A stretch of 64,000 bases of DNA, from contig NZ_JACXAJ010000004.1 in assembly GCF_014773225.1 (NCBI RefSeq), positions 248,001 through 312,000 on the forward strand, written 5' to 3'. Below the pieces are notes generated by a model, which had not been told where the DNA came from, did no database searches, and was given only the letters and a program-made list of their open reading frames with translations. Position 1 is the first letter of the stretch. Every line of letters begins with the position of its first letter. The position numbers were made by a program, and so were the translations under genes. Source of the stretch: Pontibacter aquaedesilientis. GTDB lineage: Bacteria; Bacteroidota; Bacteroidia; Cytophagales; Hymenobacteraceae. This document shows positions 3,409-14,342 of the stretch, piece after piece.

Positions 3409-3768
3409 ATGCACGATTTCAGGCTATACATAGAGTACATTGCACGCGTCATCGAAGCCATTGGCGTCCTGATTATAGCAGTCGGAGCCGCCATCGCCCT
3501 GTTCAGATTTATATTCCCGCTGCAAGGCAACACGCACAGATCCTACAGAAAGCTGCGCCATGACCTCGGCAAAGCAATCCTGCTTGGCCTCGAGATATTG
3601 GTGGCTGCCGACATCATTGCCACGGTCGTGACCGAGCCCACCATGGACCGTGTGCTGACACTCGGGCTTATCGTACTTATCCGTACCTTTCTGAGCATCT
3701 CCCTTCAGGTGGAGTTAGAGGGGCGTTTACCCTGGCAGCAAAAGCAAAATACCGAAATTCCGGAGTGA
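3409..3768 (+). CDS. DUF1622 small membrane protein
   Basis: A 119-residue inner-membrane protein with about three hydrophobic segments (residues 12-35, 55-75 and 84-102), separated by a basic loop (HRSYRKLRHDLGK). The loop followed by the GLEILVAADII segment is characteristic of DUF1622 proteins. Function of the family is unknown to me. It precedes the channel-like fusion gene by 115 bases on the same strand, so co-transcription is possible but not shown. Confidence 0.8.
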   Translation: MHDFRLYIEYIARVIEAIGVLIIAVGAAIALFRFIFPLQGNTHRSYRKLRHDLGKAILLGLEILVAADIIATVVTEPTMDRVLTLGLIVLIRTFLSISLQVELEGRLPWQQKQNTEIPE

Positions 3769-3883: not shown

Positions 3884-6007
3884 TTGAAGACGCGCACCAA
3901 AACTATACATATAGTACAAACTGCCATTCTCGTTCTCGCCTTATTTTTGGTAGCATTTATTTTGTACAGGCACTTCTATGCTTATACCCGGTTAAGTGGT
4001 CATTATACCATCGGTGTGATTTTGAACAACATCGAGCTTAGCCCAAGCGACATGGAGGTGGTAAAGTCCATTATAAGCAAGCGCCTGGAGCAAATAAACC
4101 AACAGGGCGGTATCAACGGCAAAGAACTTCGCGTAACATACCTCGATGACCAGGGCAGCCCCGAAACTGCCCAACAAGTCGTAAGGGAGACCATGAACGA
4201 CAAACACCTGATCGGGTACATCGGCTGTTGGAGCTCCACCAGATCCAAAGCCGTCTCTACCCTGATAGGCCCTGCCCGGATTCCATTTATAGGAGGCTAT
4301 GCCCTGACTAACCTCTTCGAACAATACCCAAACATGTACACAGCTGAGCAGGGTATCAGGAATGTAGCGGCCAACTTCGAGAAGCTTTTGCTGTCAGGCT
4401 ACCTACGGCCCTCGTTCGTCGGGAAGAAAGATGACCTTTACTCCATTGCCATACTGGAGAAGATGTATGAACTGGAAAGAAAAAACCCCTCCTTTAGGGT
4501 GGTTCATGAGAAATGGTTTCCGGGTGAACATACCTATATCCAAGCCGACTTCGACTCGCTCAACAAAGTCCTGAAGGCAGAGAAATCTGACTTCCTGGTC
4601 CTTTCCTTCGAAAGTCTGACAACGTCCGCACTCATCAAGGAAATCAGGAAAGCTGGAATTGACGTCCCGGTTTTCACAGCACTCGGGGATCTGGGCTTTG
4701 TGGCATCCATCATCGACAAGAGACTGGCTGGTGAGCTGTATGACCTGAATGTAGTGGGTATACCCGGCACCTTCAACCTGAGATTGCAGGAGCAGATTCC
4801 CGCTTTTCGCAGGGAGATTAGGCATAGCGAAACGCTGGAACTGCAACTGAGCTTCGGTGCCCGGTTGGCAGACAGTATTGGTATTATAGCAGAGGCTGCC
4901 AAGTCTGGTAACGCAGATCCAGCCGATAACATAAGAGAGCGGATTAACAGAAACATGATGCGCTATATTGGCGGTAGCCGCATTTACAGAGGCTGGTTCA
5001 ATGACTGGTATTTCACGCCGGAAAGGGCGATTGCCGGGGATGTGCTGCTTGCCTGGAAACCATCCACTTCACGACAGCTCATCCTGGCCCCCAAACAGTA
5101 TATGCCTATAAACGACACGCTGCGCCAGGTACCGGTACTTTATACCCATATGGACATGGTGCAGCTAAACCGGGTAAGCGACACCGAGGGCAGCTTCTAT
5201 GCTTCTTTCTACCTCGAAATTACCTCGTCAAACCCTTTTTCGATGCAGCAGCTCGATTTTACGAACGCGGCACGCAGCGAAACCAGCCACGAGTACCTGC
5301 TCGACATCAAAAAAATAAGGGAGAGAAGGCAGCTCCACGATATGCACCTTTACAACTACATGTATAAAATTTCCGGCAAGTTTCTGTTTGAGCCGGATTT
5401 ACGCAACTACCCCTTCGACCGGCAGCGGTTCTCGATCTCTTTCCAACCTTCGAGTGCCCTATACCCCTTCCTGGTACAGCCCTCCCCTCCCGAAACGCGC
5501 GACACCGTGTTTCAGGTAAGAGGCTGGGAATACAGCAGTCACTACGTAGGCTTCGACCATGACATCATTAGCTTTGTCAACACTTTCCGGCAGACACAGC
5601 AAACCGTGCCGTTCTACAAATTCAGCTATACCTTTGTGCTGGAGCGGGCCCGCATCGATTTCTTCCTGAAAGTGCTCACGCCCCTGCTCGTCATCCTGAC
5701 CATCACCTATTTTTCGGTCTATATTCCGCTGTACCGTTTCGAGACGCTGGAGGCCATACAGGTCACGTCACTTTTGGCATCCATTGCCCTGTACTTCTCC
5801 GCCTACAAACCCCAGATGGAGTATGCCACCATCTCCGATAAGATTTTCATATTCACCTACATCATGATCACATCCCTGATCGGCACCTCTATACTTCAGT
5901 TTGTGAAACGCAAGAAACACAACACTGAGAGCCACCTCGCCAAGGCGTACCAGCGCTATGTATTTCCCATTATTGTCCTGACTTTCACGCTCCTGATCGT
6001 CTGGTAG
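3884..6007 (+). CDS. Periplasmic-binding-protein / Cys-loop (pentameric ligand-gated) channel fusion
   Basis: A 707-residue protein. In order: an N-terminal membrane anchor (13-28); a type I periplasmic binding domain of the branched-chain amino acid receptor kind (about 41-398; opening YTIGVILNN, then QINQQGGINGKEL); a beta-rich domain (about 410-590) holding the Cys-loop family hallmark YPFDRQ at 509-514; and four membrane helices (593-614, 622-642, 653-674, 692-707), the second a plausible pore helix (IQVTSLLASIALYF). The loop cysteines are absent, as in known prokaryotic channels. Predicted role: an inner-membrane, metabolite-gated ion channel. The start is TTG; no in-frame ATG occurs before codon 57, which would delete the anchor. 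The alternative, a non-conducting receptor, cannot be excluded. Confidence 0.85.
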   Translation: MKTRTKTIHIVQTAILVLALFLVAFILYRHFYAYTRLSGHYTIGVILNNIELSPSDMEVVKSIISKRLEQINQQGGINGKELRVTYLDDQGSPETAQQVVRETMNDKHLIGYIGCWSSTRSKAVSTLIGPARIPFIGGYALTNLFEQYPNMYTAEQGIRNVAANFEKLLLSGYLRPSFVGKKDDLYSIAILEKMYELERKNPSFRVVHEKWFPGEHTYIQADFDSLNKVLKAEKSDFLVLSFESLTTSALIKEIRKAGIDVPVFTALGDLGFVASIIDKRLAGELYDLNVVGIPGTFNLRLQEQIPAFRREIRHSETLELQLSFGARLADSIGIIAEAAKSGNADPADNIRERINRNMMRYIGGSRIYRGWFNDWYFTPERAIAGDVLLAWKPSTSRQLILAPKQYMPINDTLRQVPVLYTHMDMVQLNRVSDTEGSFYASFYLEITSSNPFSMQQLDFTNAARSETSHEYLLDIKKIRERRQLHDMHLYNYMYKISGKFLFEPDLRNYPFDRQRFSISFQPSSALYPFLVQPSPPETRDTVFQVRGWEYSSHYVGFDHDIISFVNTFRQTQQTVPFYKFSYTFVLERARIDFFLKVLTPLLVILTITYFSVYIPLYRFETLEAIQVTSLLASIALYFSAYKPQMEYATISDKIFIFTYIMITSLIGTSILQFVKRKKHNTESHLAKAYQRYVFPIIVLTFTLLIVW

Positions 6008-12832: not shown

Positions 12833-14116
12833 TTAATACTTTATTCTGAACTTGTCGAGATTGGGTAGGTGCTTTCTTTTTCGCTTCAGTTCGTGCTCGT
12901 AAATGGTCCGGCCCAGGTTCTTCATGAAGGGGTACCCTACGGTATCGTAATCATATTTGCCATCGTTGAATATTTCGTCTTCGTTTGCCAGGATGACGGC
13001 CGTGACTAGGAACTCTACGTTCTTGTCGAAATCCACGATGTAGGCATTGTCGATCAGGAAGCCGTAAGCGTTGCCGACTTTGTTAAAAATCCGGATGTTG
13101 TCAGGTATAGACTTTTCGGATTTGCCATACATCAGGAACTTCACGTACCCGTCTGGGTACTCCTGCGGGTCGTAGCTTGGGTAATTACTCTCGCGAGGCA
13201 GCATGCTCATGTATTTGTAAAGGAAGGCATAGTCCTCGTCTGTCAGGTTGAAACGCTGCTGAGCCGGCACCGCCTCCGGAAACAGCACACTTCGGAGTAT
13301 CCCTTGCAGCGTCTCGATCGAGATATAGTTTTTGGCCCTGAAGTCCATCGGCCCGTTCACCAGTTCATCGCCTTTCATGTACCCTCTACCCAGCATGCCG
13401 TCGAACCTGGCTTGGTTAAATAAGATCGGGTTATTGACCAGAGGCTGCTCATAAATCACTTGTCCGTTTTTGTAAAACCGGAAAGGGTTGGTATGGCGGT
13501 TTTCGTCCGGGGTGAGAAAAATATCCAAACGGTGCACCAGTTGTACATCTTTAAATCCTTTCTGGTGGAGCGAGTGATTGAGTCGCTGCTGGCCCACAAA
13601 CTCATAGAGCCGGTTGTAGGCGTCGTTGTCACTCACTAGCAGCACCTTTTTGATGTAATGCGCAATAGAAGCCTGCCCATCAGCCGAGGTGCTGTCGCCT
13701 GTCACCGGACTTTGGCCCGCATAGGCGCTGTCTGCCTGCAAAGGCGTGTACTTGTCTAGTCCAGGTATAGCCAGTTCGTTGAGTTTTTCGAGTGCCACAA
13801 GCGCTCCGGGGAATTTCACGGTACTGGCCGGGTAGAAATACTCCTGCGGGTTTAGGCGGTAGGTATGGGAAGTGAAGTGCGGCTGGTTGTTCTCGTCGCG
13901 GTCTATCTGCGTGTACAAGATCTGCACCCTGTACTTCTCCGGGTTGTCGAGTATAGCCTTGAAATGCGCAGGCTCTGCTTGCAGGAGTTTCTCTATCATA
14001 TTCGTTTGCTTGCTTCCCCCCTGCTGACTGCCAGCACAGGATGACAGGGCGATTCCAGAGATCAACCCCAGGTATAGTGACAGTCTGCGCCGCTGTTGGT
14101 GTAACGTTCTTTTCAT
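12833..14116 (-). CDS. Secreted class A beta-lactamase-like serine hydrolase (lipoprotein)
   Basis: From ATG 14116 the protein has a basic N terminus, a hydrophobic run and a lipobox (ALSSC), so it is probably an outer-membrane lipoprotein. The serine-hydrolase motifs appear in order: SxxK as STVK (in PASTVKFPG), SDN (LLVSDNDAYN) and a KTG-like KVG (FNKVGNAYGF). This is the class A beta-lactamase / penicillin-binding fold, but the protein is much longer (about 427 residues) than a class A enzyme. It is annotated as a serine hydrolase; true beta-lactam hydrolysis is not shown. A longer frame starts at 14167, but it would bury the signal sequence. Confidence 0.85.
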   Translation of the reverse strand: MKRTLHQQRRRLSLYLGLISGIALSSCAGSQQGGSKQTNMIEKLLQAEPAHFKAILDNPEKYRVQILYTQIDRDENNQPHFTSHTYRLNPQEYFYPASTVKFPGALVALEKLNELAIPGLDKYTPLQADSAYAGQSPVTGDSTSADGQASIAHYIKKVLLVSDNDAYNRLYEFVGQQRLNHSLHQKGFKDVQLVHRLDIFLTPDENRHTNPFRFYKNGQVIYEQPLVNNPILFNQARFDGMLGRGYMKGDELVNGPMDFRAKNYISIETLQGILRSVLFPEAVPAQQRFNLTDEDYAFLYKYMSMLPRESNYPSYDPQEYPDGYVKFLMYGKSEKSIPDNIRIFNKVGNAYGFLIDNAYIVDFDKNVEFLVTAVILANEDEIFNDGKYDYDTVGYPFMKNLGRTIYEHELKRKRKHLPNLDKFRIKY

Positions 14117-14342
14117 GTCAGGCAGGTATGGTGTGAGTGAAGTTAAGAAGCTTTTTTGGGTTTGCAAGGAGGAAATGAGGAGCAGTTTTTAAGCAATAAG
14201 TTTGAGTTAAAGATTAGATAGGAAATTGCTATATTTAGAAGAATTATGGTCTTTCAAGGCGGTAGTTGTAGTAGATATAAGGCTGATAAACGTCATAGTG
14301 ACGTTTACACAGTCGTTAGGCTTTATAAACATTATGAATTAG

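Follow-up and report, generated by a model that had tools for sequence, protein, structure and literature searches.

The 64,000-nt stretch of the Pontibacter aquaedesilientis genome analysed here (the window) carries, at positions 3884–6007 of the plus strand, one open gene of 707 aa that begins with TTG, present as the first-pass annotation had recorded it. Pfam, phmmer and profile searches identify its product as a type I periplasmic binding (PBP-I) domain joined to a pLGIC module. In three related records (L002, L003, and L004), whose proteins are 72%, 72%, and 71% identical to the window protein, translation begins at an ATG located two codons downstream of this TTG. Orthologs of 71%–72% identity occur in all four named Pontibacter records (L001–L004), and their ATG starts fall one or two codons from the position matching the window start. 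Directly upstream, at 3409–3768 on the plus strand, is a gene for a small DUF1622 membrane protein (Pfam, 7.5e-24). Elsewhere in the window, a protein with a Beta-lactamase2 domain (PF13354, 1.4e-15), called from TTG, is encoded on the minus strand at 12833–14167.

The sensor half occupies approximately aa 41–390 (4004–5053, plus strand). Its type I periplasmic binding domain, already named in the first-pass annotation, is upheld by Pfam matches to Peripla_BP_6 (aa 67–274; 5.9e-18; 66.1 bits, cut-off 31.7) and ANF_receptor (7e-8; 32.3 bits, cut-off 25.4), and a profile of the domain matches PDB entries 3hut (1.7e-10), 4mpt (3.9e-9), and 4gnr (1.1e-6). Judged by sequence, the domain is in the Leu/Ile/Val-type class. 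Residues N48, E51, W116–S118, T142, D184, S187, and D269 are invariant in alignment A1 (10 sequences) and, on our reading, would line the cleft. In Escherichia coli LivJ, residues of the amino-acid pocket include S79, A100, and T102. S118 aligns with the first-lobe serine of LivJ, but the threonine-bearing loop is shifted by one position and the alignment of the second lobe is unreliable. An amino-acid ligand is therefore a guess at the level of the class only, and a candidate amino-acid pocket comprising S118 and T142 was withdrawn on account of the shifted register. The description 'amino-acid-receptor-like' draws on the class of binding protein. A Peripla_BP_6 search of the same genome returned one other match, a protein of 591 aa; as this carries an extra N-terminal part, no transporter-type binding protein was seen in that search.

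The C-terminal half is a divergent Bacteroidota branch of the pLGICs that the Pfam models miss: neither PF02931 nor PF02932 matched the window protein. A single-sequence phmmer search against PDB sequences gave 6fl9 (6.8e-5) and 3uq7 (7.1e-5), which we take to be sTeLIC and ELIC, respectively. With a profile built from 12 channel halves, 188 different PDB sequences scored at E<=0.001, and the top 60 consist entirely of pLGICs and chimeras of them. The best match is an ELIC–GLIC chimera (4yeu, 1.7e-12); DeCLIC (9ftg, 2.2e-11) and an alpha chain of a nicotinic receptor (2bg9, 2.4e-9) are also among the matches. This homology spans both the beta domain and the four-helix membrane domain. Compared profile to profile, the channel halves also match six short relatives (Prob 98.4, E=7.1e-15). 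Pfam scans covered three of the six, of which L017 lies above both pLGIC cut-offs, L016 lies just under the LBD cut-off, and L040 has no match. A genome-wide search with the Pfam LBD model gave no match in the window's genome and none in 14 control genomes either, and is hence uninformative. The layout first noted at this locus, with PBP-I domain and pLGIC module in one chain, is borne out by the Pfam and PDB sequence matches, and the window protein is almost certainly a sensor-fused pLGIC.

The beta (extracellular-type) domain, placed by homology and the channel-half model at approximately aa 416–588 (5129–5647, plus strand; boundaries approximate), contains the motif YPFDRQ at aa 509–514 (5408–5425, plus strand). 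Jaiteh et al. (2016) describe seven positions conserved across the superfamily, tabulated (their Table 1) as the [F/Y]PxD loop, a beta9 tryptophan, a pre-M1 arginine, an M1 proline, and an M2–M3 proline. All seven are present in the window protein (Y509, P510, D512, W548, R588, P600, and P643), and all are invariant both in A1 and in a second alignment, A6, whose 14 sequences include five from a second Bacteroidota group described below. The motif lacks flanking cysteines, and the channel halves of all 11 orthologs are free of cysteine; the protein is therefore a Pro-loop receptor rather than a Cys-loop receptor in the strict sense. The motif itself was correctly recognised in the first-pass annotation, but its description as a Cys-loop hallmark does not stand.

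AlphaFold2 modelled the channel half with low confidence (pLDDT 50.4, pTM 0.41; support only), as strands followed by helices at aa 593–613, 621–640, 650–678, and 684–706. The full chain, modelled from five sequences, reached a pLDDT of 41.5, too poor to use beyond support, with four helices at similar places. M1 (5660–5722), with the conserved P600, is supported by alignment, model, and hydropathy; M3 (5831–5917) and M4 (5933–6001) are supported by model and hydropathy. The predicted pore-lining helix M2, taken together with E620 (5741–5803; all on the plus strand), is placed by alignment and model, with an uncertain register. A plain hydropathy scan flagged an N-terminal segment and the M1, M3, and M4 regions in 11/11 orthologs, two of which also show a single weak additional segment within the PBP part, but the scan flagged M2 in none of the 11, which may be an effect of an amphipathic pore helix. 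The four C-terminal membrane helices originally proposed are thus found in both models, albeit with M2 missed by hydropathy, and the original tally overlooked a fifth hydrophobic segment near the N-terminus. Foldseek searches with the channel-half model gave 937 matches at E<=0.001, led by DeCLIC (4.3e-9), and the best 50 are all pLGICs. Neither of the two outcomes named beforehand as contrary to a channel—C-terminal helices unlike the Cys-loop fold, or the lack of a pore-lining second helix—occurred, with both results resting on the two low-confidence models and on TM-scores of at most 0.49.

An HMM alignment to GLIC places E620 on the glutamate preceding M2 (presumably the -2' position) and L631 on 9'. 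This alignment requires a two-residue insertion before M2 and a two-residue deletion after it, whereas the ungapped register shifts M2 by two; the predicted start of the M2 helix at aa 621 speaks for the gapped one. All 10 sequences of A1 have glutamate at position 620. Tasneem et al. (2004; PMC549065) mark a glutamate at this position as the residue for cation selectivity, but Jaiteh et al. (2016) caution that in prokaryotes selectivity cannot in general be predicted from it. Taken together, a cation-selective channel is moderately probable.

The fifth hydrophobic segment, at aa 10–28 (3911–3967, plus strand; hydropathy 2.66), has counterparts in all 11 orthologs. Small-x-small triplets occur before or inside this stretch in some of them and after it in none, and the sole lipobox-like cysteine among the 11 lies within the stretch itself (in L018). 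On the basis of these motifs, the N-terminus is predicted to be an uncleaved anchor; with its N-terminus inside, such an anchor and M1–M4 would make a consistent five-helix topology. This is the least expected feature of the protein, and would keep the sensor beside the channel. Approximately 12 residues separate the end of the anchor (aa 28) from the first PBP strand predicted in the full-length model (aa 40–46), and so short a spacing would place the clamshell alongside the beta domain, near the membrane.

The PBP-I/pLGIC chain is under purifying selection, as read from sequence comparison. Whole-gene Ka/Ks is 0.068–0.079 in four pairs, three of which share sequences, and the values are 0.059–0.091 for the PBP part (three pairs), 0.029–0.101 for the beta domain, and 0.064–0.089 for the membrane part (four pairs each). 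Ks is low only in the L002–L003 pair (0.165), the window–L001 pair is near saturation (Ks 2.96), and two saturated pairs (L009–L011 and L009–L024) were left out. Mean pairwise identity among the 11 orthologs is 34.3% in the anchor, 60.0% in the PBP domain, and 64.5% in the beta domain, rising to 85.5% in M1, 87.6% in M2, and 90.0% in M3, with 55.4% in M4.

The search for the same fusion in other genomes, proposed with the original annotation, found a match in 14/204 genomes of the family and an intact frame in 11/204. Intact frames are carried by 10 genomes of the genus (11 copies) and by one genome of another genus (G399), which has two intact tandem copies. One genome (G016) has a broken copy, and two (G012 and G003) have gene remnants. 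The broken ortholog (L010/L059) differs from L004 by three in-frame stops and no indels at 92.7% DNA identity, and by the look of it is a young pseudogene. At the syntenic locus of three further genomes of the genus (G010, G015, and G028), no channel match was found at E<=1e-4, and MBL, DUF1622, coil protein, SusC, and SusD are retained in order. This scatter of intact, broken, and missing copies indicates a gene that has been inherited and repeatedly lost; Tasneem et al. (2004; PMC549065) and Jaiteh et al. (2016) both describe a sporadic distribution of such channels. The tandem copies in G399 (L065, 7014–9152 and 9217–11352) share 45% and 43% of their residues with the window protein and lie outside A1; W116 is replaced by lysine in one (L025) and T142 by proline in the other (L046). 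The pair could possibly form a heteromer.

Beyond the family, a search of the order matched 26/390 genomes. Seven of these belong to the window's group, one by a remnant only, 12 have frames of 708–731 aa (L027–L038), and seven have frames of 316–363 aa. A class-level search matched 15/395 genomes, which include the window's own, four with frames of 699–795 aa (L102–L105), and ten with short frames; at phylum level, 10/395 genomes matched, one being the window's. The longer frames (L027–L038 and L102–L105) make up a second Bacteroidota group of 16 loci, which resembles the window protein in length, domain order, and channel half. In profile–profile comparison based on 12 of the 16 loci (alignment A5), the channel halves of the two groups match strongly (Prob 98.8, E=5.5e-17), whereas the N-terminal halves alone show no match (Prob 0.5, E=0.11). 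The N-terminal half of the second group is PBP-like without being recognisably similar to that of the window protein: five scanned members fall under the Peripla_BP_6 cut-off (E 5.8e-4 to 3.8e-3), and a loose lipobox-like motif occurs in 9/16, in seven of which it sits where the hydrophobic stretch ends. Full-length profiles of the two groups are collinear (Prob 98.1). The channel tree is compatible both with the two groups being sisters (AU p=0.368 for a joint clade) and with other placements, and a single origin of the two fusions is one possibility, set against the mismatch of the N-terminal halves.

Several further frames came to light in these surveys. In L056 (G597), an open frame of 729 aa joins a C-terminal half resembling pLGICs to an N-terminal half that looks like a sensor, by eye of the Cache type, and two short pLGIC-like frames of 334 and 354 aa lie side by side in G1163:C36 (L108 and L116). 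A hypothetical protein on a plasmid of Streptomyces sp. HUAS 14-6 (L117, 2243–3379) is 24% identical to a second-group channel (E=3e-6) over the beta domain and pre-M1 region. A tblastn search of plasmids with the window protein matched 53 records, none spanning 80% of the query, and the best 40 match the PBP part only; no relative was confirmed in the viral contigs scanned.

The remark in the first-pass annotation that the class might not be new was well founded. Tasneem et al. (2004; PMC549065) reported pLGICs with a PBP-I domain fused at the N-terminus in two alphaproteobacteria, Bradyrhizobium japonicum and Magnetospirillum magnetotacticum, and predicted that they are homopentameric chemoreceptors. 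The class is thus already known, and the window gene is a member from another phylum. By their published description, those fusions have an N-terminal PBP-I domain and a complete pLGIC module, as here; however, the bacterial proteins of Tasneem et al. begin with a signal peptide, whereas the window protein begins with an apparent uncleaved anchor. DeCLIC (6v4a, 9ftg, and others), the top structural match, is likewise a bacterial pLGIC with an extra N-terminal domain, but its lobes are Ca2+-binding jelly rolls (PMC9897478, PMC12664993) that pack on the side of the beta domain (PMC9897478), rather than a PBP-I fold. ELIC and GLIC share the channel module, with profile matches at the 1e-11 and 1e-9 level; they have no fused sensor domain, and the window chain is about twice as long. 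The parallel first drawn with eukaryotic glutamate receptors, which carry a PBP-I domain at the N-terminus (Tasneem et al.; PMC549065), holds for the sensor fold (ANF_receptor, 7e-8) and fails for the pore, since the pore and signalling part is unrelated. The pore of ionotropic glutamate receptors lies within a PBP-II domain; the Pfam scan of the window protein found no PBP-II family, and the C-terminal half is a pLGIC. A literature search that had most subscription journals outside its reach found no paper on this Bacteroidota channel lineage, nor any joining Cys-loop and Pontibacter.

Gene neighbourhoods were compared at 13 loci that carry the gene at full length (those of the window, L001–L004, and L058–L065). 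DUF1622 is directly upstream in eight, in at least two genomic settings: the window, L001–L004, and L059 share the order DUF5687, ABC, MBL, DUF1622, channel, coil, SusC, and in L058 and L061 DUF1622 adjoins the channel in other settings. No DUF1622 match was found within the locus stretch of the other five (L060 and L062–L065). DUF1622 is present in 22/37 genomes of the genus and in 9/9 of those with a full-length channel gene (eight intact, one broken), lying elsewhere in the genome in two of these nine (hypergeometric p=0.004, kinship ignored). A specific DUF1622–channel pair was considered and is weakened: among the 28 remaining genomes of the genus, 13 also have the family and, as it persists at the three syntenic loci that lack the channel, is only a weak partner candidate.

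The reading we somewhat favour is that the protein forms a homopentameric, probably cation-selective channel whose PBP domain would bind a small molecule and thereby gate or modulate it; gating by a metabolite is plausible. The receptor would sit in the inner membrane, with five copies assembled around their M2 helices, and the N-terminal anchor and beta domain would keep each PBP domain in the periplasm, beside rather than atop the channel. Binding of a small solute, similar to the ligands of amino-acid/amide-type PBPs, would close the clamshell and so open or modulate a cation-conducting pore, changing the membrane potential or admitting ions. That ligand binding by the PBP domain is the main controlling input is likewise judged somewhat better than even. 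A more particular form, tentative and rather doubtful, is that the sensor is tethered at both ends, its clamshell lying beside the beta domain near the membrane and pulling directly on the channel; in the second Bacteroidota group, a lipobox-like motif would often take the place of the anchor. Such a geometry may possibly have been built repeatedly in Bacteroidota, on different PBP-like domains; to our knowledge it occurs in no solved pLGIC.

Control by the PBP domain has to be set against the proposal made by Tasneem et al. (2004; PMC549065) for such fusions, in which this domain would only concentrate or present a ligand to the classical agonist site between beta domains. With mean identities of 64.5% and 60.0%, respectively, the beta and PBP domains are equally well conserved, as that proposal would have it; however, the loops of the classical site could not be located in the window protein, and the short linker from predicted anchor to PBP fold suggests a fixed sensor rather than a loose presenter, leaving this alternative improbable, though not negligible. 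Were the PBP domain instead a structural or modulatory cap that no longer binds solute, the channel would answer pH or Ca2+ as GLIC and DeCLIC do. The N-terminal domains of DeCLIC bind Ca2+ and modulate gating (PMC9897478, PMC12664993), and the PBP pocket residues are off-register with LivJ. Against such a cap, the PBP part and the channel have similarly low Ka/Ks values, W116–S118, T142, and D269 are invariant in A1, and in the G399 tandem pair W116 is changed in one copy and T142 in the other; we consider it unlikely.

Ion flow itself might be dispensable if the pLGIC fold relayed its signal to another protein, for which the DUF1622 neighbour is a candidate: DUF1622 adjoins the channel in 8/13 loci and at least two settings and occurs in all nine genus genomes with a full-length channel gene. 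The same family, however, stays at its locus in G010, G015, and G028 although the channel is missing there, is found in 13/28 other genus genomes, and is not adjacent in 5/13 loci; moreover, M1–M3 are the most conserved parts of the protein, as expected for a working pore. This reading is accordingly very improbable.

According to Jaiteh et al. (2016), no pLGIC from a unicellular organism has a known biological role, and DeCLIC is described in a 2025 paper (PMC12664993) as the only pLGIC with an N-terminal domain that has been even partially characterised. In the fusion described here, the sensor domain is recognisable and could be expressed separately, which offers a direct route to a natural ligand, and the role of the channel can be approached by comparing related strains in which the gene is intact, broken, or missing.
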